Shown here one piece after another: positions 3,464-41,850 of a DNA stretch of 64,000 nt. Within the stretch, counting starts at the first letter, position 1; each line of letters begins with the position of its first letter. The notes beneath the pieces are model-generated. The model was not told the DNA's origin and did no database searches. It saw only the letters and a program-made list of their open reading frames with translations. Both the position numbers and the translations under genes were made by a program. The DNA comes from Geobacteraceae bacterium (GTDB lineage: Bacteria; Desulfobacterota; Desulfuromonadia; Geobacterales; Pseudopelobacteraceae), in contig JAAXTM010000001.1 of assembly GCA_013336525.1 (NCBI GenBank), positions 770,207 to 834,206 of the forward strand. The letters are read 5' to 3'.

Positions 3464-3528
3464 ACAAACTCTAAGTAATACAGGATCATTTTGCTGCCTT
3501 AGAGGATGATGCTGTGCAGGAGGTAACA

Positions 3529-5364
3529 GTGGATATTTTTTCACTAAATATCGGGGCAACCCCTAAAGCGGGCTCTGTTCTCTTCAGAGTCTGGGCTCCG
3601 AAAGCTTCATCTATAGAAGTTGAACTTGTTGACAGCGATCATCCGAATACAATTCTCCAGAAAGATGGTGAATACTTTCAGGGCACTGTTCGGGCAAAAG
3701 CAGGAGACCTCTACTGGTACAAAATCGACAACACATTACGTCGTCCAGATCCCGCTTCCCGCTACCAACCGGAAGGCGTACACGGGCCTTCACAGATTAT
3801 TGACCCGACTTATTCTGCATGGAGTGACAACGAATGGAGAGGTCTACCACTGGATGAATACATCATGTATGAATTGCATGTCGGCACTTTCACTACGGAG
3901 GGTACTTTTGACGGAGCAATATCACACCTCGACTACCTGTGCGAACTCGGCATAACCGCCGTCGAATTGATGCCGGTTGCCCAGTTCCCTGGTGAACGCA
4001 ACTGGGGGTATGACGGCACCTTTATATTCGCTCCGCAAAACAGTTATGGCGGCCCGGATGGTCTGAAACGGCTGGTAGATGCCTGTCACTCTCGCGGGTT
4101 GGCCGTAATTCTCGATGTGGTTTACAACCATCTGGGACCGGAGGGGAACTATCTACACGCTTTTGGTCCATACTTTACTGATCGCTACCATAGCACCTGG
4201 GGAGACGCGGTCAATTTTGATGGTCCCGACAGTGACCAGGTCCGCCATTATTTCATCTCAAATGCTCTCTACTGGATAACTGAATTCCATATCGATGCGC
4301 TAAGACTGGACGCTGTCCAAGGCATATTTGATTTCAGCGCCAGGCATATCCTTCAGGAATTGACCGAGGCTGTTCACATGCAGTGTGCCGCGCTCGGTCG
4401 GAAGGTCCACGTTATTGCCGAAAGTGATCTGAACGATGTGAGGTTGATCAATACCCGGGAGTCCGGTGGTTACGCTCTAGATGCCCAGTGGAACGACGAC
4501 TTTCACCATTCACTGCGAGCCCTTATGACTGGGGACAATGACGGATACTATTCTGACTTCGGCGAGTTTTCAGACCTGGTTAAGAGCATTAAAGAGGGGT
4601 TTGTTCTCTCCGGTGGGTATTCGACATTCAGAAGAAGACGGCACGGCAGTTCCTCGGCAAAAATTCCTCCCATTAAATTGGTGGTATTTTCCCAGAATCA
4701 CGACCAGGTGGGCAACCGGATGCGCGGTGAGAGACTGAGCGAACATCTTACACTCCAACAGCTCAAGCTTGCCGCCGCAACTACGTTATTATCTCCCTAC
4801 CTGCCGCTGCTCTTCATGGGAGAAGAATATGCGGAATCGGCGCCGTTCCCTTATTTCGTCAGTCATGGCGATGCGGATCTGGTGGATGGTGTCAGGCGGG
4901 GACGCCTTGAGGAATTCGCCGCATTTGCTCTTGAAGGTTCCCCCCCGGATCCACAGTCCGAGGCAACGTTTCTTTCTGCAAAACTGGATCAGGAACTGCG
5001 CCGTCAAGGGGAGCACCACATCATCTTCGACTTCTACTGTGAACTGATAAAATTACGGAAGGAATGTACACCTCTTGCCGGACACCGCAGGGAGGATATG
5101 CAGATTATCTCCTGCGAAGAAGAAAAACTGTTGGCTGTGGTCCGGAGAGCCGACGGCGATCAGGTGCTCTGCCTGTTCAACTTCAGTGACCAGAATCGCG
5201 TGATCGGTCCGCCGCTGGCGAACGGCACAATGCATATTCTTCTCGATTCAACCGGCAAATACCCGCCGGACAGTTGCATAACCGTATATGCTACCAGACC
5301 CAAAACATTCCCAACTCTGGCCCCTTTTGGCGTCATTGTCTATCGGACCGAAAGGAGTAGTTAA
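3529..5364 (+). CDS. treZ: Malto-oligosyltrehalose trehalohydrolase
   Basis: CBM48-like N-terminus, GH13 motifs (DVVYNHLGPEGNY, ALRLDAVQGIFD, VFSQNHDQVGNR); GTG start after aGGAGGtaaca. Confidence 0.9.
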   Translation: MDIFSLNIGATPKAGSVLFRVWAPKASSIEVELVDSDHPNTILQKDGEYFQGTVRAKAGDLYWYKIDNTLRRPDPASRYQPEGVHGPSQIIDPTYSAWSDNEWRGLPLDEYIMYELHVGTFTTEGTFDGAISHLDYLCELGITAVELMPVAQFPGERNWGYDGTFIFAPQNSYGGPDGLKRLVDACHSRGLAVILDVVYNHLGPEGNYLHAFGPYFTDRYHSTWGDAVNFDGPDSDQVRHYFISNALYWITEFHIDALRLDAVQGIFDFSARHILQELTEAVHMQCAALGRKVHVIAESDLNDVRLINTRESGGYALDAQWNDDFHHSLRALMTGDNDGYYSDFGEFSDLVKSIKEGFVLSGGYSTFRRRRHGSSSAKIPPIKLVVFSQNHDQVGNRMRGERLSEHLTLQQLKLAAATTLLSPYLPLLFMGEEYAESAPFPYFVSHGDADLVDGVRRGRLEEFAAFALEGSPPDPQSEATFLSAKLDQELRRQGEHHIIFDFYCELIKLRKECTPLAGHRREDMQIISCEEEKLLAVVRRADGDQVLCLFNFSDQNRVIGPPLANGTMHILLDSTGKYPPDSCITVYATRPKTFPTLAPFGVIVYRTERSS

Positions 5365-7817
5365 TGCAGCGCTTCCTCTGCGTACATGGCCACTTTTATC
5401 AACCCCCCCGTGAAAATCCCTGGCTGGAGTCTGTTGAGATCCAGGATTCAGCCTACCCATATCATGACTGGAATGAACGGATTACGGCTGAATGTTATGC
5501 ACCGAATACCGCTTCGCGCTATCTGGACGGTGAAGGCCGCATCACCGGGATCATCAGCAACTATGCCCGGATCAGTTTTAATTTCGGACCGACCCTGCTC
5601 TCATGGATGGAAAAGTATTCGCATGATACCTACCAGGCGATACTGGCAGCCGACCGTCAGAGCATTGACTGGCGCTCCGGCCATGGAGCCGCCCTCGCTC
5701 AAGTGTACAACCATATCATCATGCCTCTGGCAACCAGGCGCGACAAACAAACTCAGGTGCGCTGGGGCATCAGTGATTTCGAACATCGTTTTCAGCGTTT
5801 TCCAGAGGGGATGTGGTTGGCGGAAACAGCCGTAGACACAGAAACTCTTGAGGTGCTTGCCGAAGAAGGGATCAGCTTCACCATACTTGCTTCTCACCAG
5901 GCGGGGCGGATGCGGAAAATCGATGGTGACAAGTGGGAGGATGTCAGCGGTTCTCATATCGACCCATCACGTGCTTACCTCTGCCGACTCCCTTCCGGAC
6001 GGAGTATCACCATTTTCTTTTACGACGGCCCCATTTCACAGGCAGTGGCGTTCGAAAAACTCCTGAACAGCGGAGAACAGTTTGCCACCCGTCTGATGTC
6101 CGGTTTTTCCCGTAACCGCAAACACCCCCAACTTGTACACATCGCCACCGATGGCGAAACCTATGGTCATCATCACCACTTCGGTGAAATGGCTCTGGGG
6201 CATGCTCTGAATCACATTGAAGGTCATGGCCTTGCCAGGCTGACCAACTATGGCGAATTTTTGGAGTTTCACCCACCAACCCATGAGGCGGAGATTGTAG
6301 AGAACAGTTCATGGAGCTGCATACATGGCATCGAGCGCTGGAGGAGTGACTGCGGCTGTAACTCAGGAGGGAATCACGGATGGGACCAGCAGTGGCGTAG
6401 GCCGCTACGGGACGCACTAGACTGGCTCAGCCAACATTTGGCAGTCTGCTATGAAGAGAGTTTGGCGCTTCACCTTAAAGACCCTTGGGAAGTACGGAAT
6501 GAATATATATCTGTCATGCTCGACCGTTCAGAGGGGAATGTTGCCGCATTTTTACTCAGACATTCCCTGCATCCGCTGGATGAAGATGCCACCTTAGCCG
6601 TACTCTGCCTGCTGGAAATGCAACGTCATGCCCTGCTGATGTACACCAGCTGCGGATGGTTTTTCGACGAATTATCAGGTTTGGAAACGGTTCAGATCAT
6701 CCAGTACGCAGCCCGGGCAATACAGTTGGCAGAGCGGTATTGCCTCCGGACTATAGAAACCGAATTTCTCGAACGGCTGACACTGGCCGGAAGTAATATC
6801 ACCGAACATGGGAACGGTGCTGAAATTTATGTAAAGTTTGTCAAGCCCGCCATGATTGACCTGATCAAGGTCGGCGCGCACTATGCCGTCAGTTCCGTGT
6901 TTGAAGAATACGGAGATGAAACTGATATTTTCAGCTATCGAGCATTCCGGGAAGATTTCATGATCCTCCGTACCGGACAGATGAGCCTGACCGTAGGGAG
7001 AATATTCATCCGTTCGTCCATTACCCACAAAGCAGACCGGATCAGTTTCTGTACCCTCTATTTCGGCGGTCATGCCTTGAACTGTGGAGTACGTTCCTTC
7101 CTTGGAGATGAAGCCTATCAATCAATGAAGGAAGAGGTTGTTACCGCCTTCAATGAAGCCGATTTTGCTACGATCATCCGCCTGATGGATACCCATTTCG
7201 GCATGCATAACTACTCACTCAAGGCTCTATTTCGGGATGAACAGCGTCATATTCTACAGCTTATCATCGCCGGTACTCTTCAGGAGTTTGAAGACAAATT
7301 TACCAGCCTCTACGAAAACAGCAGAAGTTTGATGGGGTTCCTGAGGGACACCGGCATGCCGGTGCCGCATCGTTTTATGACTACTGCCGAGACGGCACTC
7401 AATCTGCAGCTGAAAAAACTGTTCACCTCGGAAGAGGTCGATATTGACAGACTAAAGGAGGTTATTACAGAGATTACAGGCTGGGATGTCGCAGTGGATA
7501 AAGTTGCTCTGGAATTCATCATCCGCCGCAGATTGGAAGCGGCAATGGCCGAACTGCTTGAAAACCCGGAAAACGCTGAACAGCTTGGCGAACTTCTTCT
7601 GTTGACGGAAGCGATAGCGTCACTGCCGATTGATGTTAACCTCTGGCAGGCTCAGAATATTTACTGGGCCTTGCTGCATTCCCGCGACTCTGAGTTCTGG
7701 GTTAACAGAAAGGTTGCGGACAAAAACGGCACATTCTGGTTCGAATCTCTCAGAAGGCTTGGAGAGCTGCTATACTTCAATGTAAACACTCAATTAGAAG
7801 TAAAGGGGAACATATGA
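5364..7817 (+). CDS. DUF3536-containing glycoside hydrolase family 57-like protein
   Basis: 817 aa; N-terminus FLCVHGHFYQPPRENPWLE, HIATDGETYGHHHHFGEMAL; start overlaps treZ stop. Confidence 0.85.
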   Translation: MQRFLCVHGHFYQPPRENPWLESVEIQDSAYPYHDWNERITAECYAPNTASRYLDGEGRITGIISNYARISFNFGPTLLSWMEKYSHDTYQAILAADRQSIDWRSGHGAALAQVYNHIIMPLATRRDKQTQVRWGISDFEHRFQRFPEGMWLAETAVDTETLEVLAEEGISFTILASHQAGRMRKIDGDKWEDVSGSHIDPSRAYLCRLPSGRSITIFFYDGPISQAVAFEKLLNSGEQFATRLMSGFSRNRKHPQLVHIATDGETYGHHHHFGEMALGHALNHIEGHGLARLTNYGEFLEFHPPTHEAEIVENSSWSCIHGIERWRSDCGCNSGGNHGWDQQWRRPLRDALDWLSQHLAVCYEESLALHLKDPWEVRNEYISVMLDRSEGNVAAFLLRHSLHPLDEDATLAVLCLLEMQRHALLMYTSCGWFFDELSGLETVQIIQYAARAIQLAERYCLRTIETEFLERLTLAGSNITEHGNGAEIYVKFVKPAMIDLIKVGAHYAVSSVFEEYGDETDIFSYRAFREDFMILRTGQMSLTVGRIFIRSSITHKADRISFCTLYFGGHALNCGVRSFLGDEAYQSMKEEVVTAFNEADFATIIRLMDTHFGMHNYSLKALFRDEQRHILQLIIAGTLQEFEDKFTSLYENSRSLMGFLRDTGMPVPHRFMTTAETALNLQLKKLFTSEEVDIDRLKEVITEITGWDVAVDKVALEFIIRRRLEAAMAELLENPENAEQLGELLLLTEAIASLPIDVNLWQAQNIYWALLHSRDSEFWVNRKVADKNGTFWFESLRRLGELLYFNVNTQLEVKGNI

Positions 7818-10813
7818 TCGGCATTGGACTCAGAATTCCTGTATCAACCTACCGGCTTCAGTTCAACGGACAATTCGGCTTCAGCGACGCCAGAGAAATT
7901 GTCTCTTATCTACAGGACCTCGGCATCAGTGACATCTACGCGTCACCATATTTTAAAGCACGTGAGGGGAGTCTCCACGGCTACGACATCCTGGACCAGA
8001 ACAGCCTGAATCCGGAGGTCGGAACGGAGGAGGAATATGAGCAACTGATCGATGAGCTGAAGCGGTTCGATATGGGGCAGATACTCGATATAGTCCCTAA
8101 TCATATGTGCATAGAGGGGCCTGGAAATGCTTTTTGGATGGATGTGTTGGAAAACGGACCCAGTTCGACTTATGCTAGTTTTTTCGATATCGACTGGCAT
8201 CCGGTCAAACAAGAACTGGAGAATAAGATCCTGATTCCGATCCTGGGTGACCAGTACGGAACGGTACTCGAGAACGGGGAGTTACACCTATCCTTTGAAG
8301 AGGGGTCTTTTTTCGTCTGTTACTACGAACACAAACTGCCGATTATTCCCAAGACCTACAGTAATATCCTGACTCTCTATATCGAAAATCTTGAACAGGA
8401 GCTTACTAGCACTGCACCCCAATTTCAGGAATTTATGAGCGTTGTAACGGCGCTCAGACACCTCCCGCCTGCAACTGAAAAAAATTCCGAACGAATCGCT
8501 GAGCGTTACCGTGAAAAGGAGGTCGTCAAACGGCGCCTCTGGAGTCTCTATCAAAACAGCTGTGCGATAAGGGACTTCATTGATAGTAACGTTGCCACCT
8601 TCAACGGGATAAAAGGAGATCCGCGCAACTTTGATATGCTGGATGCGCTCCTTCGGGAACAGGTCTATCGAATTTCCCACTGGCGGGTTGCAACCGAAGA
8701 GATCAACTACCGGAGATTCTTCGACATTAACTCCCTCGGCGCCATCAGGGTAGAGGATCCTGACGTCTTTGAAGAAACGCACCGCCTTATCTTCAAACTT
8801 GTGGAGAGCGGAAAGATAACCGGCTTGCGTATCGACCATGCCGATGGCTTGCTGGACCCTGAAGACTACGTAAGACGACTCCAATCAGGCTGTTTCAACC
8901 GGATGTATAGTGCCACCCCGGATGCAGACAACAGTGAAGAGGAGATTGAAATAGCTGTTAGAGATAAATATGACAGGGTAGTGGCCGCAGACCCTTCATA
9001 CAAGCCGTTCTACATCGTTGGAGAAAAAATACTCCTCAAAGCAGAGAGACTGCCTGATTGTTGGAAAGTTTACGGCACCACCGGGTACGATTTTGCCAAT
9101 CAGGCCAACGGTGTGCTTGTAGAAACCTCAAATGCCAAATTATTTGATACTCTTTACACACGGTTTATGCAGCATCGCCTTGACTTTCAGGAGGCCGTCT
9201 ATGACAAGAAAAAACTTGTCATGCAGGTAGCCATGTCTAGTGAAATTAACACGCTGGGGCATTATCTAAACAGAATATCCGAACAGAACCGGCATACGCG
9301 GGATTTTACCCTTAACAGTCTGATTAAGTCGATTGTTGAGGTGATCGCCTGTTTCCCGGTATATCGGACATACACCAACAGCTTTGAAGTTATGGAGCGG
9401 GACCGGCAGTACATTGAATCTACTATTGGCTGGGCAAAACGTCAGAATCCAGCCATCAGCGCATCTATATTTGATTTCATACGCGATGTTCTCCTCCTTC
9501 ATTTTCCTTACGCCATGATCGACGAACACAAAATGGAGTGGCTTGATTTTGTGATGCGCTTTCAGCAGATAACCAGCCCGGTTATGGCCAAAGGGGTCGA
9601 AGACACGGCATTCTATCTGTACAATAGGCTGGTGTCCCTGAATGAAGTGGGTGGAAGTCCGGAGCGTTTCGGCATCACCATGGAGGCGTTCCACGGCCAG
9701 AATATCGAACGATGCAAGAGCCGACCGCTGGCAATGCTGGCCACATCAACCCATGATACCAAGAGAAGTGAGGATGTCCGGGCACGGATAACCGTACTCT
9801 CTGAAATTCCTGAACAATGGCGGGAAGGGCTTTCCCGCTGGAGTCGTCAGAACCGCAAACTCAAAATGGTTGTCGACGGCAAACCTGCTCCGAGCCGCAA
9901 TGAGGAGTACCTGCTTTATCAGACACTGGTTGGTACCTGGCCCTTCTGCAGCGTTGCGGATGAAGAGTTCGCGATATTTCGTACCCGGATGAAGGAATAC
10001 ATGTTAAAAGCCATGCGGGAAGCCAAGGTGCACACCAGCTGGATCAGCCCTAATACTCTGCGTGAGGATGCGGTGATGTATTTTGTCGACTCGATCCTGA
10101 AGGATTCTCCTCACAACAACTTTCTGCACGATTTTGCTGCGTTCCAAAAAATGACGGCAAGCTACGGAATATTTAATTCCCTGTCGCAGACCCTCCTGAA
10201 GATTGCTTCGCCCGGCATCCCAGATTTCTACCAGGGAAACGAACTGTGGGATTTCAGCCTGGTAGACCCTGACAACCGCAGGCAGGTAGATTACCGTTTA
10301 AGAAAAAAACTTTTGCAAGATCTGAAGCAAAAAGAAGAGACCTCAGGACTCCTTGAAACGGCACGAGATACTGTAGCAACACGTAACGACGGCCGTATAA
10401 AACTTCACCTCACCCACAAAGCACTCAACTATCGCCGGGAAAACCGTGCACTGTTCGAATCCGGCAGATATCTGCCGCTGACGGTAGAAGGTACATATCA
10501 GGATCATGTCTGCGCCTTTGAACGCTCGGTTAACGGCATTTCGATCATGGTGATTGTACCTCGTTTTTGTAGCCGCATTATTCAGAACTTCAGCGATCTG
10601 CCGCTGGGACCGGACGTATGGCAGGGCACTCGGATCATCCAAACATTCGATATTGCGACAAGCCGCTATCGCAATATATTCACTGGAGAAATACTGCAGC
10701 TCGATCAGCAGAATGGACAGTTAAGCCTTGCTCTTGAGAAAATACTCTCGGTATTTCCGGTCGCCCTGCTGGAAAGGATTGACCCGCTCCCTAATCTGGA
10801 AAAGGAGCTTTGA
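7814..10813 (+). CDS. treY: Malto-oligosyltrehalose synthase
   Basis: 999 aa; STYRLQFNGQFGFSDAREIVSYLQDLGISDIYASPYFKAREGSLHGYDI; ATGA overlap with upstream gene. Confidence 0.92.
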   Translation: MIGIGLRIPVSTYRLQFNGQFGFSDAREIVSYLQDLGISDIYASPYFKAREGSLHGYDILDQNSLNPEVGTEEEYEQLIDELKRFDMGQILDIVPNHMCIEGPGNAFWMDVLENGPSSTYASFFDIDWHPVKQELENKILIPILGDQYGTVLENGELHLSFEEGSFFVCYYEHKLPIIPKTYSNILTLYIENLEQELTSTAPQFQEFMSVVTALRHLPPATEKNSERIAERYREKEVVKRRLWSLYQNSCAIRDFIDSNVATFNGIKGDPRNFDMLDALLREQVYRISHWRVATEEINYRRFFDINSLGAIRVEDPDVFEETHRLIFKLVESGKITGLRIDHADGLLDPEDYVRRLQSGCFNRMYSATPDADNSEEEIEIAVRDKYDRVVAADPSYKPFYIVGEKILLKAERLPDCWKVYGTTGYDFANQANGVLVETSNAKLFDTLYTRFMQHRLDFQEAVYDKKKLVMQVAMSSEINTLGHYLNRISEQNRHTRDFTLNSLIKSIVEVIACFPVYRTYTNSFEVMERDRQYIESTIGWAKRQNPAISASIFDFIRDVLLLHFPYAMIDEHKMEWLDFVMRFQQITSPVMAKGVEDTAFYLYNRLVSLNEVGGSPERFGITMEAFHGQNIERCKSRPLAMLATSTHDTKRSEDVRARITVLSEIPEQWREGLSRWSRQNRKLKMVVDGKPAPSRNEEYLLYQTLVGTWPFCSVADEEFAIFRTRMKEYMLKAMREAKVHTSWISPNTLREDAVMYFVDSILKDSPHNNFLHDFAAFQKMTASYGIFNSLSQTLLKIASPGIPDFYQGNELWDFSLVDPDNRRQVDYRLRKKLLQDLKQKEETSGLLETARDTVATRNDGRIKLHLTHKALNYRRENRALFESGRYLPLTVEGTYQDHVCAFERSVNGISIMVIVPRFCSRIIQNFSDLPLGPDVWQGTRIIQTFDIATSRYRNIFTGEILQLDQQNGQLSLALEKILSVFPVALLERIDPLPNLEKEL

Positions 10814-12315
10814 TGTTAAATAAACGTGGCTGTGGAATACTGCTGCACCCGACATCGCTGCCGGGCGCAGGGGGTATTGGGACACTGGGGCCGGATGCCA
10901 GGCGCTTTATTGACCTGCTGCACGAAATGGGTATGTCGTACTGGCAACTGCTCCCGTTGTCGCCCCCCGCCTGCGGCAATTCCCCCTATTCCGCATTTAC
11001 CGCTTTTGGAGGTAACCCGCTCCTGATAGATCTGGAGTTGATAGTAAATGAGGGGGATCTTTCACCGGCCTGTTGCGACTGCAGCTATGCTGAAGAGAGG
11101 GTTGATTTCGGCGCCGTCATCGCATTCAAAATGGAACTGTTATATCAGGCCGCTTCAACCTTTCTGTCCAGGGACGATCCTTCCCGTACGCTTGAATTTA
11201 GCCTCTTCTGTAAAACTACACCATGGCTCCATGATTATGCGCTCTTTATGGCCCTCAAGCGGCGCTACAAAGGCATCTGCTGGAATTTGTGGCCAGAGGA
11301 TGCGGCACGACCAACAGTTGCAATGCATCAAAGATTATCGGTGGAACTTGAATCTGAAATTGCGATCCAGAAATATATGCAGTGGCAGTTTGCCCGACAA
11401 TGGCAGCAACTGCGCAGCTATGCCAACCAGAGGGATATCACCGTTATTGGGGACATTCCTATTTTTGTCGCGTATGACTCTGCCGATGTCTGGAGCCGGC
11501 GCGAGTTTTTTCTTCTGGACGAGAAAGGTGATTCCGCATTTGTGGCCGGAGTTCCACCCGACTATTTCAGCGCAACAGGCCAAATGTGGGGCAACCCACT
11601 CTATAATTGGAAAATAATGGAGCAGACCGGATATCAGTGGTGGATTGATCGTTTCAGGGCGACGTGTGAGCTCTTTGACCTTGTCCGCATCGACCATTTT
11701 CGCGGTTTTGAGGCGGCGTGGCACATTCCGGCACATGAGAAAACAGCTCAAAAAGGGGCATGGATTAAGGGTCCGGGAGAAAAACTTTTTAATGCCCTCC
11801 AGATAGCTCTCGGGTCTCTTCCTATTATTGCGGAAGATTTGGGGGTAATAACTCCTGAAGTGTTGGCACTTCGTGACCGGTACGATTTCCCCGGCATGAA
11901 GATTCTTCAGTTTGCATTTGAAAAAGAGCCGGTAAATCTTCCGCACAATCACGTCAAGCATGCGGTCGTCTATACTGGCACCCATGATAACGACACGACC
12001 AAAGGGTGGTATGATTCTCTATCTGACGTAAAGCGAACTGTGATGAACGAATATCTTGGCTGTTCCGGGGATGACAGTGCCGGTAATCTGATCCGTGCTG
12101 CACTGATGTCGGTCGCTAATACTGCAATTATACCGTTTCAGGACATTTTAAAACTGGGGAGCGAGGCACGTATGAATATCCCAGGTACCCCCTTCGGTAA
12201 CTGGGAATGGCGCTTCACTTGGGACATGCTTCCGCAAGATCTGGCGGCTTCAGTACGGAGCCAGGTGGAGCGCTACGACAGGGGACACAATGGAGGTAAA
12301 AACTATGCGTCATGA
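10810..12315 (+). CDS. malQ: 4-alpha-glucanotransferase (amylomaltase)
   Basis: KRGCGILLHPTSLPGAGGIGTLG, GNPLYNW, RIDHFRGFEAAWHIPA, AEDLGVITPEV. Confidence 0.92.
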   Translation: MMLNKRGCGILLHPTSLPGAGGIGTLGPDARRFIDLLHEMGMSYWQLLPLSPPACGNSPYSAFTAFGGNPLLIDLELIVNEGDLSPACCDCSYAEERVDFGAVIAFKMELLYQAASTFLSRDDPSRTLEFSLFCKTTPWLHDYALFMALKRRYKGICWNLWPEDAARPTVAMHQRLSVELESEIAIQKYMQWQFARQWQQLRSYANQRDITVIGDIPIFVAYDSADVWSRREFFLLDEKGDSAFVAGVPPDYFSATGQMWGNPLYNWKIMEQTGYQWWIDRFRATCELFDLVRIDHFRGFEAAWHIPAHEKTAQKGAWIKGPGEKLFNALQIALGSLPIIAEDLGVITPEVLALRDRYDFPGMKILQFAFEKEPVNLPHNHVKHAVVYTGTHDNDTTKGWYDSLSDVKRTVMNEYLGCSGDDSAGNLIRAALMSVANTAIIPFQDILKLGSEARMNIPGTPFGNWEWRFTWDMLPQDLAASVRSQVERYDRGHNGGKNYAS

Positions 12316-15300
12316 AGATTCAATTCTTGAAGACAATCCATTTTGGTACCGTGATGCGGTTGTATACCAGGTACACATAAAGGCCTTCGCAGATTCTGAC
12401 GCTGACGGCACCGGGGATTTTCTCGGTCTGATCAGCAAGATTGACTACCTGCAGCAGCTCGGGATTACCGCGATCTGGCTCCTCCCGTTCTATCCTTCGC
12501 CGCAGCGGGACGATGGCTACGACATCTCTGACTACTTTAGCGTCAATCCCAGCTATAACACCCTCCGTGAGTTCAAGCAACTGCTTGATAAAGCCCACGG
12601 TCGCGGTATCAGGGTGATCACCGAACTTGTTCTCAATCACACCTCGGATCAGCACCCCTGGTTCCAGCGTGCCCGCCGGGCCAAGTCCGGCTCGGTTCAC
12701 CGGGACTACTATGTCTGGAGCGATACGCCGGAAAAGTACCGCGATGCGCGGATTATCTTCAAGGACTTCGAAACCTCCAACTGGTGCTGGGATCCAGTGG
12801 CCAAGGCGTACTTCTGGCACCGTTTCTATTCACATCAGCCGGACCTCAACTTTGACAACCCGAAGGTTCAAACCGAAATGTTGAAAGTGATCGATTTCTG
12901 GATGAAGATGGGGGTTGACGGGGTTCGGCTCGATGCCGTTCCCTACCTGTTCGAGCGGGAGGGGACCAATTGCGAAAATCTTCCCGAAACCCACAATTTC
13001 CTTAAAAAGTTACGAGCCCATCTTGATACTAACTTCAAAAACCGTCTGCTACTCTCAGAAGCAAACCAGTGGCCGGAAGATGCCGCCGCCTATTTCGGCG
13101 AAGGTAACGAAAGCAATATGGCCTTTCATTTTCCGCTTATGCCGCGCATGTTCATGGCTATCGAGATGGAAGATCGCTTCCCGATCGTCGATATCCTTGA
13201 CCAGACACCGGCCATTCCCGAAGGGTGCCAGTGGGCTATCTTTCTGCGCAACCATGATGAATTGACCCTGGAGATGGTAACTGATGAAGAGCGGGACTAC
13301 ATGTACCGAGTGTACGCAACCGATCCCAAGGCCCGCATTAATCTCGGCATTCGACGCCGTCTGGCCCCTCTGATGGGCAATAATCGCCGTAAAATAGAAC
13401 TGATGAACATGCTCCTTTTCTCCCTGCCTGGCACTCCTATCATCTACTATGGCGATGAAATTGGCATGGGAGACAACTACTTCCTCGGAGACCGGAACGG
13501 CGTCCGCACCCCGATGCAGTGGAATCCGGACCGGAACGCCGGCTTCTCCACGGCCGGCCCCCAGAAACTGTTTCTGCCGGTCATAATAGAAGCAGAATAC
13601 CACTATGAATCGATCAACGTGGAGAATCAGGAGCGCAATTCCTCGTCGCTGCTCTGGTGGATGCGGCGCACGATCGCTATGCGCAAGCGCTTCAAGGCTT
13701 TCGGCTGCGGCACGCTGGAAATGCTGCCGTCGGACAATCCAAAGGTGCTGACTTTTATTCGCAGCTTTGAAGACGAAAAACTCCTGGTAGTCATCAATCT
13801 CTCCCGCTTTGCCCAGACGGTTACCGTAGATCTGTCACGCTACGCCGGCATGATCCCAGAAGAGGTTTTTAGCCGCAACCGCTTCCCGATAATCCAGGAA
13901 ACCAGATACCACTTCACCATGGGTTCATATGACTATTTCTGGTTCGTGTTACTCGGTACTGAAGCGCGTGCCGAGCCATGTGATGAAGAGTGCATGAAAC
14001 TGAAACTGCGGGAAGGGCATCCCTGGTGGGATGTACTGGAAGGCAAAGCAGGAGAGCGCTTGTGCAATGCCGTCATGCCGCACTATCTGCAGCGAGTCTT
14101 CTGGTTTTTCGGCAAAGGGCGCATCATCAGACAGATCAGTGTGCTCGACCGCTGTCATTTGAAACAGGATGACCAGCAGTTTATGTTGACCTTCATAAAG
14201 GTCACCTATACCGAGTCGAATCCTGAAACATATATGATCCCCTTAACTTGGTATTCCAGCGAGCAGGTACAGACCATGGCGGAGCGTCATCCGCTGGCAA
14301 CAATAACAACACTGGCGCTTGGAGATGTCGATGGCGTGCTGTGCGATGCCATCTACTTCGAGGAGTTCAGAACCCTGCTATTGGGGTTGATAAGTGGGCG
14401 GGGCAAAGTACATGGAACAAAGGGCTCACAACTGGCCGGTCTGCGTGGCAGCGGGATAACTAGAAGCTCTCCGCCCCGCGCAGAGCTTTTTCCCAGCAGG
14501 GTCGCCGCGGTCGAACAGAATAACAGCAGCATCATGTATGGCGATCGGTTGCTGTTTAAGATGTACCGAAAGCTGGAGGAGGGCGTCAATCCCGAACCAG
14601 AGATTCTCCGCATGCTGGCCGGAAAGAAACTGTTCCGGAATGCTCCTGCCTATGCCGGAAAAATTGAATATCGAACTGGCAGCGGCAGCACATATGATAT
14701 CGGCGTTCTGCAAACCTATGTATCCAGCCATGGTGATGCCTGGCGGAACACCCTGACGAGTCTTACACAATTCGTCGAGCACCTGCTGTCCCACAAACAC
14801 GACCTGCCAAAGCTCCCGTCACCCTTTCCGACACTCCTAGACGTCTGCGACAGCGGCATTCCGGATCAGTTCCGCGAACTGGTGCGCGGACTTCATCTGG
14901 AAATGGCCCTGCTGCTCGGTCGCCGCACTGCTGAGATGCACCGGGCACTTGCTGCCGATACTGCGGACAGCACATGGGATATGGAAGAATTTTCCACTCT
15001 CTACCAGCGCTCAATCTTCCAGTCAATGCGGGGGAATGTGCGGAGAACTTTCCAGATGCTGGCGGCAAATATCGGGCGTCTTCCTGAAAATGTCCAGCGG
15101 AGAGCCTTGAGTATACTGGATGCTGAAAAAGAGATCATTGCCTGCCTGCAGAAAATTACCGGACGGAAGCTTTCTGCCATGAAGTGCAGGATTCACGGCG
15201 ATCTGCACCTGGGACAGGCTCTTTTTACCGGCAAGGATTTTGTCTTTATCGATTTCGAAGGAGAACCGTACCATACACTGAGCGAGCGGCGGTTGAAACG

Positions 15301-15652
15301 CTCTCCGCTCCGTGATGTAGCCGGAATGATCCACTCGCTCCACTATGCCGCCATGACTACGCTGGTTCATCACGGCGCCAGCCACACTGACGACATCAAT
15401 CTGCTCGAACCCTGGCTTGAGGCGTGGTATGTCTATGTCAGCGGTTCTTATCTGAAAGCGTATCTGCACGCCATGAAGGGTTCGCCGCTGCTGCCAGCCA
15501 ACAGAGATGAGCTTGCCGTCATGCTGCGCTGTTTCCTTATTGAAAAAATGGTCCACGAGCTTGGTTGCGAGTTAAACAACCGTCCTGACGGGGTTGACCT
15601 CACTTTGCGTGGCATCGAAATGCTGGTGAAGGATTGTCGTTGTAAATTGTAA
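12305..15652 (+). CDS. treS: Trehalose synthase fused to maltokinase (TreS-Mak)
   Basis: N-terminal TreS (FWYRDAVVYQVHIKAFADSDADGTGDFLGL, GVRLDAVPYLFERE); C-terminal kinase motifs IHGDLHLGQALF and FIDFEGEP; RBS ggaggt before ATG 12305. Confidence 0.92.
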   Translation: MRHEDSILEDNPFWYRDAVVYQVHIKAFADSDADGTGDFLGLISKIDYLQQLGITAIWLLPFYPSPQRDDGYDISDYFSVNPSYNTLREFKQLLDKAHGRGIRVITELVLNHTSDQHPWFQRARRAKSGSVHRDYYVWSDTPEKYRDARIIFKDFETSNWCWDPVAKAYFWHRFYSHQPDLNFDNPKVQTEMLKVIDFWMKMGVDGVRLDAVPYLFEREGTNCENLPETHNFLKKLRAHLDTNFKNRLLLSEANQWPEDAAAYFGEGNESNMAFHFPLMPRMFMAIEMEDRFPIVDILDQTPAIPEGCQWAIFLRNHDELTLEMVTDEERDYMYRVYATDPKARINLGIRRRLAPLMGNNRRKIELMNMLLFSLPGTPIIYYGDEIGMGDNYFLGDRNGVRTPMQWNPDRNAGFSTAGPQKLFLPVIIEAEYHYESINVENQERNSSSLLWWMRRTIAMRKRFKAFGCGTLEMLPSDNPKVLTFIRSFEDEKLLVVINLSRFAQTVTVDLSRYAGMIPEEVFSRNRFPIIQETRYHFTMGSYDYFWFVLLGTEARAEPCDEECMKLKLREGHPWWDVLEGKAGERLCNAVMPHYLQRVFWFFGKGRIIRQISVLDRCHLKQDDQQFMLTFIKVTYTESNPETYMIPLTWYSSEQVQTMAERHPLATITTLALGDVDGVLCDAIYFEEFRTLLLGLISGRGKVHGTKGSQLAGLRGSGITRSSPPRAELFPSRVAAVEQNNSSIMYGDRLLFKMYRKLEEGVNPEPEILRMLAGKKLFRNAPAYAGKIEYRTGSGSTYDIGVLQTYVSSHGDAWRNTLTSLTQFVEHLLSHKHDLPKLPSPFPTLLDVCDSGIPDQFRELVRGLHLEMALLLGRRTAEMHRALAADTADSTWDMEEFSTLYQRSIFQSMRGNVRRTFQMLAANIGRLPENVQRRALSILDAEKEIIACLQKITGRKLSAMKCRIHGDLHLGQALFTGKDFVFIDFEGEPYHTLSERRLKRSPLRDVAGMIHSLHYAAMTTLVHHGASHTDDINLLEPWLEAWYVYVSGSYLKAYLHAMKGSPLLPANRDELAVMLRCFLIEKMVHELGCELNNRPDGVDLTLRGIEMLVKDCRCKL

Positions 15653-34608: not shown

Positions 34609-35181
34609 TTACTTTATTGTAGATATGTTTGGGACGCTGGGCCATTTTTTAATTCCGCTAAAAGGTGGTGGCAGAAGTTTTCTATACTTCTTATCAGATT
34701 CGAAATCAACTTCCCCATATTTTTCGAGAAGTTTTGCAATTAGAATCATACGGTCCCAAAACAAATCAAGTGCCCGCATCGTTTCATTTTTGAGATTAGA
34801 TAATTCTCTCTCTCCACCTGGAAGTGAATCCATGACTATTTTAAAGGTTTCTGTATCTGATCCTGGATGAAAGACACCCATCTTACCCACGAGCATTGAC
34901 TCGGCAATATATCCTGCTAAAACACCACAGGCATAAGCTCTAGCTTGTGTAGTGCTTAAATCTTCCAGAAAGTATTCTTCAATAAAGCAGGATCCATATC
35001 CAACATAAGAATCACAATCCGCCTCGGCTCCGACGGCATGAACCATGATTTTTTTGACTAATGTACCACCTAAAGAGAATATGACAGCATGAGCAGCCTC
35101 ATGGCAGCATGCGGAATCCCTAATTTCCTTTGAAAAATAATCTGCGGGTTTGGCCATTGTTATATCCATTGTAATCTCCAT
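34609..35181 (-). CDS. Stand-alone HEAAH-motif protein, FtsH/M41 peptidase-like, no AAA domain
   Basis: CCHEAAHAVIFSLGG zinc-binding HExxH; ARAYACGVLAGYIAESM pattern as in M41 domains. Confidence 0.55.
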   Translation of the reverse strand: MEITMDITMAKPADYFSKEIRDSACCHEAAHAVIFSLGGTLVKKIMVHAVGAEADCDSYVGYGSCFIEEYFLEDLSTTQARAYACGVLAGYIAESMLVGKMGVFHPGSDTETFKIVMDSLPGGERELSNLKNETMRALDLFWDRMILIAKLLEKYGEVDFESDKKYRKLLPPPFSGIKKWPSVPNISTIK

Positions 35182-35438
35182 TTTTTAGTGTTTGAGAATT
35201 GCTTGTGAATTTCGCATATTTTATGCCCCAACTTTTCAACGGCATTTGTTGAATCATTAATTTTCACAATTATCAACAATAATCAGGTTAATGACATATT
35301 CCGTCATTAGTATGTTGTTGCATGCTCTCTATAGGAAATTCTATGTAAGTAGCCCCCCTGTCAAGTAGATGCTACATAGAGCGCGCAGCCAACGCGATGC
35401 ACAAACATCATACAAGATGGGCTTGGGCCAGGATTTAT

Positions 35439-35738
35439 ATCGGAATTGATGTCAGTAGCAAGGGTTTTGTTATTCACGCGATAGATGGTCAGAAACGTGT
35501 GGTTTTAAAGGGTGAGATATTTCCCTAGAAGCAATCATTGTTGAAGTTGTTGAAATATTTGGGTGACAAACCGAAGTACGTGGTCTTTGAAGCCGGCAAT
35601 CAGATGAAGTGGATATGCCATGAATATTCAAGCGTTCGCAAACCGTTTCCCAACAAAAAGACCTATCATCACTATCTGGAGCAGATGATTTGGCCGTCAG
35701 GTCGTATCCGTCCCCACTTTGGGAGCATGAAGTCCTAG
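35439..35738 (+). pseudogene. IS110/IS1111-family transposase N-terminal remnant
   Basis: IGIDVSSKGFVIHAIDGQKRVVLKGEIFP*KQSLLKLLKYLGDKPKYVVFEAGNQMKWICHE with in-frame TAG at 35526. Confidence 0.65.
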
Positions 35739-35891
35739 AGCATATTAGCGGAAAGCAGACGGTTCGAATTATATGAACATTCTGTCTGCGGCTCAGCAAT
35801 TTACCGTCACCACCAAAACTCCGCTGCATATTACCAAGTTGCTGCTGAGAACATGGTTCATGAAAGTGCAATTACTATCTATATAAACTAA

Positions 35892-35959
35892 AAAATGGCG
35901 CCGGATGATGAGTTTCATAACTATTCTACTGTTACTTATCATCTCCCCGACGCCATTTT
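35892..35959. repeat. Imperfect long palindrome (aaaatggcgccgg...ccgacgccatttt)
   Basis: Ends are inverted repeats with internal gatgatgag/cttatcatc pairing; related sequence near 33801. Confidence 0.45.
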
Positions 35960-36149
35960 GTGCCACGATTAAAACCGGCACCCGCTGATTGAATATCTTG
36001 TGCGCTCTCTCCAAGACATACCTTTCGCAGATACCTTCGTTAATCTTATGGATTGACACCTGCCCATTGCAAATTTACTACTCAATACAACATGGAACTG
36101 ACTGATTCAACCAAATATCCAAGCCATCCAGTGCAACGGTAGGTAGCCT

Positions 36150-36758
36150 CCTTCGCCCACATGCCTTTTCAGCACGTCATCTGTCCTTCGCTTACCCCTC
36201 TTGGCTGCCAAGCACGTCAGGTGCTCCGTGCTCTTAACACGGATTCGGACGCAGATGTTGCCCGCTTACGCGGGAGGTTACTACGAGACCTCCGAGCCCA
36301 AGGATTCCCACCAGGAAACCCCAGGTTACTTCCCCGATTCAGTTGTTGCCGCACTTTGTCTTTCGACCAGTACGCGACCGTGGGCTTTTACCCCACACAC
36401 GTTTTACATGAGTCTGATGAAGGTGGCTTCTGTGCTATGCGTAAAATGGTGGCCTATCGCCACTGAATCTGAATTTCCGGGTACGGAGTGTCATGGCTCC
36501 CTGTACTTTTCACCCGACGCATAACTTTAAAATGAAGCTTCGCTTTCGCTCACCATATCAGACCTGTCGGTTGCGCTTACGCGCTTCAAACGAACTGCTC
36601 TAATCCCAGGGGATTCATCGTTAGCCTTTTATGCAACTGTTGCCAAACAGTCGCCGACTTAGCCCCCTGAAACCGTTCGTTCCGACACCGGTATTTTGTC
36701 TCTCGACATAGCCCCGGTCCCGCTCTAGCGGGGTACGTGTACACCTATCCAGGCGCAC
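36150..36758 (-). ncRNA. Group II intron 5' end and domain I region, no reverse transcriptase
   Basis: Minus strand starts GTGCGCCTGGATAGGTG..., contains AAAGGCTAACGATGAATCCC and long GC-rich stem blocks typical of bacterial group II domain I; similarity appears to stop near 36150. Confidence 0.6.
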
Positions 36759-36867
36759 CACTCTCAAAACTTTTTTCTTCTACTGTGGACTCAATCAACA
36801 GTCACTCCGGATGCGAAAGGCTGGCAACCTTTCTTAATGCATCCATTGCTCCTGCTGACTGGTCCCA

Positions 36868-36902
36868 AAACCGTACGTGCGTCTTTCGATCGCATACGGC
36901 TT
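36868..36902 (-). ncRNA. Group II intron domain V-like hairpin
   Basis: Minus strand AAGCCGTATGCGATCGAAAGACGCACGTACGGTTT: AGC triad, two-nt CG bulge, GAAA tetraloop. Confidence 0.65.
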
Positions 36903-37288
36903 CCCTACCTGTCCTTATTCTCTGCTTGTAATGAAAAAGATTGGCGATCTTCTTCGACCGGAGGGCTAATCCGGTCATCACAGAGGCATCGGACATTGCT
37001 GGATTGTGCTGGATGGCATCACAATCAGCGGTTGATCTATATCATCGGCCTATGGCCGTTGGCTGGGGATCATCCGCCCTTATTCACCATGTTGCACCTG
37101 CTGCATCAGAGCAGCGGTACTTAAACGTGTGACACTAGGGTCAGAATCGAGAGTGCGGAATCCACAAGGAGACTCACTCATTGCGTGTGGCATCAGAGCC
37201 AAAATCGCTGCGTGTTATGAGATAAATTTACCTCAACTATGTGCGCAGCAACAGCTGCGAATTGTGTTTCATATCCACTCCAATCGTA

Positions 37289-38054: not shown

Positions 38055-38085
38055 GGTGACAGCAACAGGCCGCGATGCTGTCACC
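38055..38085. promoter_or_regulatory. 10-bp stem hairpin in leader of the 38125-41582 gene group
   Basis: ggtgacagca-acaggccgcga-tgctgtcacc. Confidence 0.6.
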
Positions 38086-38124
38086 ATAGAGCCTCCTTCA
38101 ACTCAACACGAAGGAGAAAGTATT

Positions 38125-38385
38125 ATGGCTAAAGTCACAATGAAACAGAAGCGGCGCTATCGCGTGCAGATCAGCATTAGCAAAGGTTTGTGGGAGAAGT
38201 ACAACCATAACATGGAGCTGGCAAAGGAGCTTGAGGCCGAGATTGATTTCTCGAAGGACTTTGAACCCTGGTTTGCCAAACAGAACGAACAGGTCAACTT
38301 GGACTTGCAGCTGTTACTGCAGGGTCGGCAACTTGAAGCTACAGCTGCTGAGCAGAATGGAGGCAAACCCGATGCCACTCATTAA
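38125..38385 (+). CDS. Hypothetical protein of putative integrative element
   Basis: RBS aaggagaaag before ATG; 86 aa MAKVTMKQKRRYRVQISISKGLWEKYNHNME... Confidence 0.7.
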   Translation: MAKVTMKQKRRYRVQISISKGLWEKYNHNMELAKELEAEIDFSKDFEPWFAKQNEQVNLDLQLLLQGRQLEATAAEQNGGKPDATH

Positions 38386-39427
38386 ACTCCGCGCAGAGAC
38401 ATTGGCACACAGCACAGCCTTTCATCTTGTTGTCCGTGCCCAGTCATCAATTGCAAGTTACTTGCACTTTGGGAATGGCGACCTGTCAAAATTTCTGGAA
38501 CGCGATTCGTTCCTGGCTATTGCAACCCGACTCACCGATCACTTTTTCCATCGTTCTGCAGCACTGGCAATTCATGCTCAGGTTGTTGATCTCTATCTAG
38601 CACTGCTGATAATGGCGCCAATTCTCCAACGCCTACCGTTGTCAGCAAAGTTTGATTGGCACCGTGGTCACCTAACTGGCTTTTTTCGTTCCCACGTGAA
38701 TGGTCGGAAGAAGCGATATCACTTTGCATCGCGCACGGTAAATCGCACTTATAGTCCTGAAGACCTGGTTGCTAATCTTGACCGGCTCGGCGTCCATGAT
38801 GCCGGCATAGTGGCGCTGTTGCTTGACCTCTACCGCCGCCACGCCGGAGGTACGGCGCTGAAAGATTTACTGGCTCATCAGTTGTTTGACCCTATTCTGA
38901 TGTCTACGTTGAAGCAGGGGTACGAGTTACGCCATGGCAATAGGTTCTTTCGTCTTGAGAAGGCACCATTCCCCGGATCGATTGATCTGCGGCGCGAAGC
39001 AGTAACTCTGCTTGATTTCCAGATGTTCTCTGTCGAGCATACAGGCGGGCATCATTTAGAAATCTTTATCGCGGAAAACTCCTTGGCAGAATTTCGGGAG
39101 AACGTTACAAGCCTGCTCGGCTCAGCTACTGACCCGGAATACAAAGCCAAAAGAATTGAAACGTACATTCGTGATCTGGTTGAGAGAACCCGACCGGCAC
39201 GTTCTGCGTTGCCACAGCTTCTGGAATTGAAGCTATGGCTCATTACCAAGTTGCGTAAATTGGCCGGAAATTCGCCAGAAGTGATGATACTTCCGCACCT
39301 GCTTGTTAATCTCTGGCTGCAACGCTCTGATAGTCGGCTGTATCTCAAAGATCCCAACTTCTTTTTAAATTCCAGTCACAGCGAAAAAACATTTGTTACG
39401 TTTTTCTCGCCCTACCGGGAGGTGTAA
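38372..39427 (+). CDS. Hypothetical protein of putative integrative element
   Basis: 351 aa from ATG 38372, overlapping the upstream stop; no recognised family. Confidence 0.75.
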   Translation: MPLIKLRAETLAHSTAFHLVVRAQSSIASYLHFGNGDLSKFLERDSFLAIATRLTDHFFHRSAALAIHAQVVDLYLALLIMAPILQRLPLSAKFDWHRGHLTGFFRSHVNGRKKRYHFASRTVNRTYSPEDLVANLDRLGVHDAGIVALLLDLYRRHAGGTALKDLLAHQLFDPILMSTLKQGYELRHGNRFFRLEKAPFPGSIDLRREAVTLLDFQMFSVEHTGGHHLEIFIAENSLAEFRENVTSLLGSATDPEYKAKRIETYIRDLVERTRPARSALPQLLELKLWLITKLRKLAGNSPEVMILPHLLVNLWLQRSDSRLYLKDPNFFLNSSHSEKTFVTFFSPYREV

Positions 39428-39429
39428 CC

Positions 39430-39891
39430 ATGGGCTCAACTACGCATAGAAGAGATATTACCGGAGAAGATTTTACTCGCTTGGCTAAGCTCAGTAGTTC
39501 CCTTTCAACAATGGATAGCCTGTATCTGAGGCCTTGTTGGAATCTCTGGGATATTACCATGCTACTGCCGGTCTGGTTTCACTCATCTACCGGTTGGCGG
39601 CTGGATAGATACAAAGAATTCAAACGGGATGCATACGGTATTACAGTTCCCGATTTTCGCCGTATCTGCCGCTATATCAAAGTTACCGAACCGCAGATGA
39701 TTGATACTCTCTACCGAATGTCAATGATCAGTGTCGTCAAGGGCCAAAAGTCTTATGAACGCCCCAAGTTCAAGATGCTATTCCAGGCGGGGTTGATTAG
39801 TGCCGATGGCTGGGAGAAGGATATTGAAGCATTCGGATTTGTTATCGAACGGCGCAGGGCCGACGGTGCCTTCAGACAGGAGGGTTTATGA
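39430..39891 (+). CDS. Hypothetical protein of putative integrative element
   Basis: 153 aa, 2-nt gap after previous CDS, ATGA overlap with the next. Confidence 0.75.
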   Translation: MGSTTHRRDITGEDFTRLAKLSSSLSTMDSLYLRPCWNLWDITMLLPVWFHSSTGWRLDRYKEFKRDAYGITVPDFRRICRYIKVTEPQMIDTLYRMSMISVVKGQKSYERPKFKMLFQAGLISADGWEKDIEAFGFVIERRRADGAFRQEGL

Positions 39892-40151
39892 CACAGGAAA
39901 TCCTTACTGCTGAAGAGTTTGCCCAGCGGCTTAAAATTGGTAGATCGACGCTCTTTGACTGGCTAAGCAAGGACATACTCGTTTCAGGTAAACATTACCT
40001 TAAAGTGGGAAGAATTATGAGGTTTGTCTGGTGTGATGACGTTGTAATTACATTACTGGAACGGTCAACTGCCGCAACTGAATTGCGGCAGTCCGCCTCC
40101 AAAAAAACCAAACCGGTGGCAGCAATAAAGACAATCGACTGGAACTATTGA
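39888..40151 (+). CDS. Small helix-turn-helix / excisionase-like DNA-binding protein
   Basis: EILTAEEFAQRLKIGRSTLFDWLSKDILVSGKHYLKVGRIMRFVW. Confidence 0.7.
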   Translation: MTQEILTAEEFAQRLKIGRSTLFDWLSKDILVSGKHYLKVGRIMRFVWCDDVVITLLERSTAATELRQSASKKTKPVAAIKTIDWNY

Positions 40152-40238
40152 TCCAGTTGCTATTCATAACAAATGTGCTATCCTTCCACCGGACTTTGGA
40201 TTTTGTTCGGTGGGTAGGATGCGCAAAAGGAGAATAAC

Positions 40239-41582
40239 ATGCGCAGAAAACCCACAGCAGAAATGCTCTTTGACAATATGGACGACAAGCATGAAGGAAC
40301 TATTATTCGTAAGCCAGGCAGCAAGAAGTTGTATATGCTGTTCTACTACTACGGCCGCCGGGTAGAAAAAACCACCAGCCTGGACGACACACCGGTAAAC
40401 AGGAAAAAAGCCAAAACATGGCTCGATCGTCAGATGAAAAAAATTGAGACGAATCGGTTTGTTTTCGCCGATGCGTTTCCTGCAGCGCCAAGTGCTGAAA
40501 AGGCGTGGTTTGCCCGCCAGGAAGGCTGGGACTATCAACCGGAACCGAAAGACGTTCTGTTCGGTGATTACGTCGCACAATGGTACTTGAAAGTCTGGGA
40601 GCATATTCCAATCGGAACCAAAAAGGACGATTGGAAAAGTGCCATCAACTACTGGTTGCTACCGCACTTTAGAGAAATGACTTTTTACCAGATTTGCGGT
40701 ACTGAGCTGAAAAACTTTATCTCAACAATCAAGTGGAAATCAGGTGCCAAGAAGGGTCAACTGCTCAGCAAGAAGCGAGTCAAGAACATTCTGGTGCCAT
40801 TTCGCGCCATTTTTAACGATGCGGTTGAGGAATTTCGATGGAACCTGCCCGACCCGTTCCGGAATACCAGAAAGCATCTGCCAGACACCGAAGAGAAGGA
40901 GCGGGAGGTCTTTCGCTATGACGATTGGCAGCTTCTGCTGAAGCACATGGACCCATGGTATGTACCGATTGTCGAGTTCATGATTCTCACCGGTACCATA
41001 AGTTCAGAAATTGCGGGGCTCAGAAAATCGGATATCAAAGACAATCACATTCTGATTCAGAATACTATCGTCAGGAATAGGGAAAAGCAAAAAACCAAAA
41101 CGAAGTACCGCTCAAGGAAAGTTCCCATCACGAATGCCGTCAGGGAACGACTGGAAATGGCACTCAGCCGGTCACACGATGATTACGTTTTTACCAAACC
41201 GACCGGTGACAAATTCAACGCGGCAAACTTCAACAATAATATCTGGATAAAGGCACTCAAGAAGGCTGGCCTTTCCCACAAAGTGCCTTACTGCACAAGA
41301 CACTCTTTTGCTGCATGGTCGCTGACATTGAAAGTTGATATGCTCAGGCTAGTGAGCTTGATGGGACATAAAGACAAGAAAATGGTTTTTGAGGTTTACG
41401 GCAATTATGTGGAGGGGCTAGAACAGGATGCTTTAAAAATCCTCAACTACTTTGGCCAGGATTTTATCATGCCCGAGATCAGACAACATGCCATCGTGAC
41501 CATGCATGAGAGTCTGGCACCCCATCTTGCTTGGCAAATGAATCAAATGCAACAGGCTGCATATCCGGTCGTAACTGTCTAA
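40239..41582 (+). CDS. Tyrosine recombinase / phage-type integrase with DUF3596-like N-terminus
   Basis: YCTRHSFAAWSL and LMGHKDKKMVFEVYGNYV catalytic boxes; N-terminal Arm-binding-like region. Confidence 0.85.
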   Translation: MRRKPTAEMLFDNMDDKHEGTIIRKPGSKKLYMLFYYYGRRVEKTTSLDDTPVNRKKAKTWLDRQMKKIETNRFVFADAFPAAPSAEKAWFARQEGWDYQPEPKDVLFGDYVAQWYLKVWEHIPIGTKKDDWKSAINYWLLPHFREMTFYQICGTELKNFISTIKWKSGAKKGQLLSKKRVKNILVPFRAIFNDAVEEFRWNLPDPFRNTRKHLPDTEEKEREVFRYDDWQLLLKHMDPWYVPIVEFMILTGTISSEIAGLRKSDIKDNHILIQNTIVRNREKQKTKTKYRSRKVPITNAVRERLEMALSRSHDDYVFTKPTGDKFNAANFNNNIWIKALKKAGLSHKVPYCTRHSFAAWSLTLKVDMLRLVSLMGHKDKKMVFEVYGNYVEGLEQDALKILNYFGQDFIMPEIRQHAIVTMHESLAPHLAWQMNQMQQAAYPVVTV

Positions 41583-41590
41583 AAAACAAT

Positions 41591-41643
41591 GCCCCGACTA
41601 GCATTAGTACTTTCTTAGTGAAAGTTCTGGTGAAAGTCGGGGC
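41591..41643 (+). terminator. Inverted repeat downstream of integrase
   Basis: gccccgact ... agtcggggc followed by aaaaag. Confidence 0.5.
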
Positions 41644-41651
41644 AAAAAGAA

Positions 41652-41673
41652 AGGGAATCCGCAAGGATTCCCT
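41652..41673 (-). terminator. Rho-independent terminator of tRNA-Gly
   Basis: agggaatcc-gcaa-ggattccct, T-rich tract on minus strand (TTTCTTTTTG). Confidence 0.8.
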
Positions 41674-41683
41674 ATACTTATAA

Positions 41684-41758
41684 TGGAGCGGGAAACGGGA
41701 TTCGAACCCGCGACTTCGACCTTGGCAAGGTCGCACTCTACCACTGAGTTATTCCCGC
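41684..41758 (-). tRNA. tRNA-Gly (GCC)
   Basis: Minus strand GCGGGAATAACTCAGTGGTAGAGTGCGACCTTGCCAAGGTCGAAGTCGCGGGTTCGAATCCCGTTTCCCGCTCCA; cloverleaf folds by eye, encoded CCA. Confidence 0.97.
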
Positions 41759-41850
41759 TTGCGAGACCAGATGTATAGCAAATAGAGATATTGGTGTCAA
41801 CTTTTTTTAGCACCTAATGCATTTTTTTCAACAGGAGAAATATCCTGCTG

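Follow-up and report, generated by a model that had tools for sequence, protein, structure and literature searches.

Among the very few large classes of ribozymes are the circularly permuted (CP) group II ribozymes. In the published examples, domains 5 and 6 (D5 and D6) precede D1, D2 and D3; a branched RNA and a small circle of 15-86 nt are released in vitro, no role is known for them, open reading frames (ORFs) for an intron-encoded protein have never been observed within or near the RNAs, and there is no known maturase (Roth et al. 2021, PMC8637638). Here we describe a putative RNA of this class, together with a candidate maturase gene, in a 64,000-nt stretch of DNA from a Geobacteraceae bacterium (assembly GCA_013336525.1, contig JAAXTM010000001.1, positions 770,207 to 834,206 of the forward strand; hereafter the window). 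A sequence-only reading of the window had proposed a compact five-gene integrative element next to tRNA-Gly, beginning at 38055. This boundary was too narrow, as the conserved unit begins near 35.9 kb and includes an RNA gene that had been overlooked. We consider it probable (roughly 0.7) that the region forms the right-hand core of an integrative element targeting tRNA-Gly, with a CP ribozyme and a divergent operon that includes a maturase derived from a reverse transcriptase (RT).

A second conserved block (~1.2 kb; window 35890-37074) lies upstream of P0001, the first gene of the operon, with 77% identity to L023 and 71% to L024 (L, G and C numbers are our labels for loci, genomes and contigs). 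It is noncoding and holds no plausible gene. Its features, all on the minus strand, are as follows.

36138-36913, minus: putative CP group II ribozyme, D5-D6-linker-D1-D2-D3, ~0.78 kb, inside a D4-like helix (GGTAGG/CCTACC); from conservation, nhmmer and RNAalifold
36869-36901, minus: D5 hairpin with AGC triad and GAAA loop; Rfam RF00029 above gathering over 36785-36904, and covariation
36785-36866, minus: D6; its branch-point A at 36791 is bulged and lies 7 nt upstream of the 3' splice site (AC)
36759-36784, minus: linker ("exons"), 26 nt, between D6 and GUGCG, with intron-binding site 1 (IBS1) GAGAGTG at its 3' end
36485-36490, minus: exon-binding site 1 (EBS1) CACTCC, complementary to IBS1 (loop against linker end; compensatory change in L027)
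35894-35960, minus: long hairpin with a T-run after it, resembling a terminator and situated downstream of the ribozyme; conservation of 84-85% in L023 and L024

The Rfam model of group II D5-D6 (RF00029) exceeded its gathering score in the window, L023 and L027. After D5-D6 and the linker comes GUGCGCCUGGAUAG, which is a group II intron 5' end, and then D1-D3. D5-D6 followed by GUGCG and D1 was found in 11 of 11 sequences, with exceptions in the motif itself (GUACG in L024 and a variant 3' site in L060), and the linker, 26 nt here, measures 14-33 nt among the relatives. The AGC triad and tetraloop of D5 and the bulged adenosine of D6 are present in all 11 sequences; the branch A column is identical throughout and always 7 nt from the 3' splice site, whose motif is AC or AU across the family. 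The EBS1-IBS1 pairing (CACTC/GAGTG) is represented by the covarying GCTCC/GGAGC in L027 and is weaker in L024, L026, L060 and L066. The 5' leader is complementary to the 3' tail (GGTAGG/CCTACC, GGCATG/CATGCC, TGCAGG/CCTGCA and AGGTGC/GCACCT), as would be expected of a break within the D4 loop.

When the D5/D6 structure was predicted without prior input, 94.9% of the cells were paired; 16 of the 27 pairs showed double changes, and the covariation was 0.559, compared with 0.166 +/- 0.024 in shuffles (reached in 0 of 500). Full-length RNAalifold gave 175 pairs, 120 of them with double changes. Group II fragments are common in the genus and its relatives, with RT matches in 21 of 29 genomes, and the RNA might accordingly be a decayed, accidentally rearranged group II intron without present function. 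However, compensatory change has preserved the permuted junction, the branch A, the splice motifs and the pairings in two or more classes as well as in a Syntrophaceae genome, and 120 covarying pairs are not expected in a dead fragment, which makes such decay very improbable. Two canonical introns in tandem, the D5-D6 of one followed by the D1-D3 of the next, would likewise give halves that each have canonical boundaries (GUGCG and AC), but the alignments contradict this arrangement and we rejected it as extremely improbable: none of the aligned loci has D1-D4 upstream of D5 or D5 after D3, the linker stays at 14-33 nt everywhere, and the two ends, 5' leader and 3' tail, are paired. By its domain order, its reversed internal splice sites and its covariation, 36138-36913 is identified from sequence as a CP group II ribozyme, for which we infer splicing activity and a function.

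The published CP ribozymes share with this RNA the order D5-D6-D1-D2-D3, the bulged branch A, the AGC triad, EBS1-IBS1, a short linker or circle, the lack of an internal ORF, a mobile or plasmid context and a protein gene that is often divergent, although their splice-site consensus is GGGCG/NU, whereas GUGCG and AC/AU here are nearer to those of canonical introns (PMC8637638). No sequence similarity of this RNA to the Thermus and Polaromonas (pPNAP05) plasmid records was detected. Because the splice motifs depart from the published consensus and there is no similarity to these records, the RNA represents a separate lineage of the CP class. The ribozyme DNA had no match when searched against plasmids, and the CP-junction pattern was not found in viral contigs; two natural copies of the ribozyme occur in Geomonas oryzae S43.

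The operon divergent from the RNA and the tRNA gene beyond it are as follows.

38125-38385, plus: P0001, 86 aa, ribbon-helix-helix (RHH)-like, first operon gene, divergent from the RNA; eight elements have a homologue at this position
38372-39427, plus: P0002, 351 aa, derived group II RT/maturase-like by AlphaFold with Foldseek and by profile comparison, without YADD
39430-39891, plus: P0003, 153 aa, conserved and kept together with P0002; no fold assigned, no significant PDB match
39888-40151, plus: excisionase-like helix-turn-helix (HTH) protein, 87 aa, conserved; weak HTH_17/excisionase matches
40239-41582, plus: tyrosine recombinase (integrase), 447 aa; Pfam Phage_integrase 3.5e-16 and Arm-DNA-bind_2 6e-14
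41684-41758, minus: tRNA-Gly(gcc), the integration site; its 3' end faces the integrase end

ORF and tRNA calls confirmed the positions that the sequence-only reading had given for the five plus-strand ORFs and the tRNA-Gly, and the domain matches bear out both its tyrosine recombinase facing the 3' end of the tRNA and its excisionase-like HTH protein. P0001 and P0002 overlap by 14 bp, and P0003 and the excisionase-like gene by 4 bp. The three proteins that could not be assigned by eye, P0001, P0002 and P0003, had no family match in Pfam, PHROGs or NCBIfam either, and none of the five proteins had a PHROG match to the capsid-hijack or packaging genes that mark satellites like the phage-inducible chromosomal islands.

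Searched as a sequence against the PDB, Pfam and NCBIfam, P0002 matched nothing. With its AlphaFold model (pLDDT 84, pTM 0.74), Foldseek against the PDB returned 6ar1 (the GsI-IIC RT; E 6e-5), followed by 8t2r, 8t2s, 7k9y and 7uim; the top structures were all group II RT/maturases, and Prp8 was also in the list, weakly. A comparison of the P0002 profile with group II RTs from relatives by hhalign gave an E value of 9e-5 and a score of 43.2 over up to 318 columns, in a colinear alignment from fingers to thumb. Chance similarity was rejected, as 30 column-shuffled versions reached at most 21.2 (mean 14.7) and reversed ones about 18. Like the GsI-IIC RT, G2L4 and LtrA-type RT/maturases, P0002 has the predicted fold over most of its length and a thumb/domain-X-like C-terminus; unlike them, it is shorter, unrecognised by sequence families, and encoded outside and divergent from the RNA, and YADD is absent from the alignments of its family, the site reading LRxGN in most members. 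The model and the profiles suggest that P0002 descends from a group II intron RT and is a maturase with a dead RT site. The RNA and protein lines of evidence are independent, because the RNA was identified first and no information on it entered the structure search. The structural comparison that had been proposed for P0002 and P0003 was thus informative for the former, but the predicted fold of P0003 had no significant match in the PDB. P0002 had no match in plasmids and viral contigs, and a single-protein scan of genome contigs found none.

The companions of this RNA, P0001-P0003 and an integrase with an RT-fold maturase candidate among them, differ from the AcpG of published CP RNAs. On Thermus plasmids, an RHH gene, AcpG (260 aa) and a gene for a protein of ~116 aa stand beside the CP RNA, in the same layout as P0001-P0002-P0003, although neither AcpG and P0002 nor the third proteins of the two sets have detectable homology. 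P0002 as an AcpG was rejected (hhalign probability 0.2%). In L042, L076, L078 and L079, AcpG lies between the RHH (CopG) gene and the ~116-aa gene, pTT8 being without an annotated RHH gene; in plasmid pTthSNM1-1f (4.7 kb) these three are the sole annotated genes. The likeness in layout may serve as a lead rather than as a test.

Within the order searched, 10 further genomes have a homologue of P0002, one match being marginal. The order P0001-P0002-P0003-xis-int surrounds them and ends at tRNA-Gly in L023, L026, L028 and L029, and at a partial 3' part of tRNA-Gly in L027. As the search for this gene order suggested by the sequence-only reading found it next to tRNA-Gly in several genomes, the gene set is beyond chance; and of the two outcomes that the same reading had named as fatal to its proposal, neither was found, since the genes match no known family of phages or integrative and conjugative elements and are co-conserved with the integrase. 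We then scanned a DNA pattern spanning the permuted junction over 84,980 species and obtained nine loci, all from Geobacterales or Syntrophaceae. In L067, found through the RNA pattern alone, a homologue of P0002 (E 1e-30) is encoded divergently from the RNA, and L060, which belongs to another class and was found by a P0003 profile search of the phylum, carries P0002 (2e-94) and the full RNA (nhmmer, E 7e-89). Two classes of the phylum, as well as a Syntrophaceae genome, contain RNA and P0002 together. The loci without the RNA are precisely those with a truncated P0002 (L025, L030 and L031), though a single deletion would remove both. The integrase is not beside the module in L060 and L024 and is replaced by a serine recombinase in L081 (the wider L067 region). 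Overall, the tightest link is therefore that of RNA and P0002, with P0003 next and the integrase exchangeable.

All the genes form one overlapping operon with xis and int, and P0003, xis and int stay where the RNA is gone (L025 and L031), as they might if P0001-P0003 were accessory or regulatory proteins of the integrase, or cargo, with the RNA a passenger and the RT fold of P0002 a remote resemblance without an RNA partner. We regard this as unlikely, since RNA and P0002 occur together in loci that lack this integrase (L024 and L060) or carry a serine recombinase (L081), the RNA-less copies also carry a truncated P0002, and the nearest folds of P0002 are specifically those of group II maturases. 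The earlier proposal of an integrative element with three undescribed conserved proteins therefore stands, but not its description of them as cargo or a satellite-like system: P0001-P0003 are the conserved core that accompanies the ribozyme, and the cargo is separate, lying beyond the far side of the RNA in relatives. A degenerate second copy of the P0001-P0002 region stands in tandem with an intact one in L022 (G110:C805).

Several observations weigh against the interpretation of the region as the core of a ribozyme-bearing element. L025 and L031 keep P0003 and the integrase though the RNA and the N-terminal part of P0002 are lost, so that the RNA is dispensable for part of the operon. Covariation of the D4-like closing helix has modest support (permutation p 0.02), and the helix is weak in some sequences. 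The model of P0002 was built on 6 sequences, and its TM-scores to RTs are only about 0.5, with a large root-mean-square deviation. Finally, the left boundary in this genome could not be assigned to a single unit.

In the mechanism that we propose, the CP RNA would be transcribed from the minus strand, and P0002 would bind it and stabilise its active fold, replacing the missing intron-encoded protein. The branch A (36791) would attack the 5' splice site at 36759/36758, the linker would then close to a 26-nt circle by back-splicing, and D5-D6 would remain attached to D1-D3 through a 2'-5' bond. P0001 is probably a repressor of the divergent operon or a regulator of the divergent promoters, and the integrase and excisionase would move the element into and out of tRNA-Gly. 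Retro-mobility via P0002 is unlikely because YADD is lost, and no other group II RT of family TIGR04416 was found in the genome of the window. Because neither P0002 nor the rest of the genome provides a recognisable active group II RT, the ribozyme most likely serves the element (in maintenance, copy or expression control) and would not act as a retrotransposon. A further and doubtful reading is that the excised circle restores the canonical order D1-D2-D3-(element as D4)-D5-D6, in which the sole exon is the 26-nt linker, the whole being a giant group II intron with a borrowed tyrosine recombinase and an RT reduced to a pure maturase. If true, this would explain CP group II RNAs on plasmids and circular elements, and CP splicing would be a sensor of the circular, excised state.

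The ends of the element were traced from its attachment site.

41684-41706, minus: att site, the 3' end of tRNA-Gly (23 bp), repeated at C11:763044-763066, which is 7.1 kb to the left of the window

A duplicated tRNA 3' segment had not been seen by eye; this copy lies outside the window, 48.8 kb from the tRNA, adjoining a displaced terminator at C11:762994-763043. In G092 the terminator directly follows the tRNA end, and the comparison of empty tRNA-Gly sites recommended by the earlier reading thus yielded an empty site. The gene flanking tRNA-Gly, for a glycosyltransferase, has a close homologue in 36 of 39 genomes of the genus. A further copy of the tRNA end at 764540 and an integrase remnant show that insertion at tRNA-Gly was repeated. 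Between the two tRNA-Gly 3' copies (L038:11045-12560; C11:763044-764564), a HepT-like/nucleotidyltransferase pair accompanies the integrase remnant, and this segment is a decayed older element at the same att site. The whole 47-49 kb was not adopted as a single mobile unit, as treS, which lies within it here, has a different location in further genomes of the genus, the empty G092 among them.

The elements of relatives are about 8-13 kb long and flanked by tRNA 3' repeats, their cargo lying in the interval from the left repeat to the RNA; att repeats with tRNA-Gly were found in L025 and L027-L029. L025 also has a second integrase (L025:3378-4867; 38% identical) ending at another tRNA-Gly att copy, and holds tandem elements in one att site. 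The cargo includes a metallophosphatase-STAND protein and a PtuB/HNH-like gene, and Vsr/methyltransferase in an RNA-less copy. In L060, a DruE-like (Druantia) helicase of 1754 aa (L060:2173-7437) lies just downstream of the P0002-P0003-ribozyme module without integrase. The integrase facing the tRNA 3' end, the xis-like HTH protein, the tRNA-derived att site and the defence cargo of relatives are those of tRNA-targeting tyrosine-recombinase islands, from which the element differs in having a conserved ribozyme-maturase module in its core.

Leftward of the ribozyme, a remnant reading like an IS110-type transposase (window 35420-35740) separates it from a stretch of low G+C content (39-41%), in which a 190-aa protein with an HEAAH (HExxH-type) motif and no Pfam match is encoded (window 34609-35181); this protein is possibly cargo of the element. 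A large trehalose/glycogen cluster (window 3514-15652) lies between the displaced tRNA terminator and tRNA-Gly, and represents an island or a rearrangement because its location differs in relatives.

With this locus, a second lineage of CP RNAs would gain a defined home, in a tRNA-targeting element whose relatives carry defence cargo, and a candidate partner with the fold of a group II maturase and a dead RT site, through which the role of the RNA becomes directly testable. P0002 would be a bacterial case in which an RT has become a protein for RNA folding alone, a step inferred for the spliceosomal Prp8.

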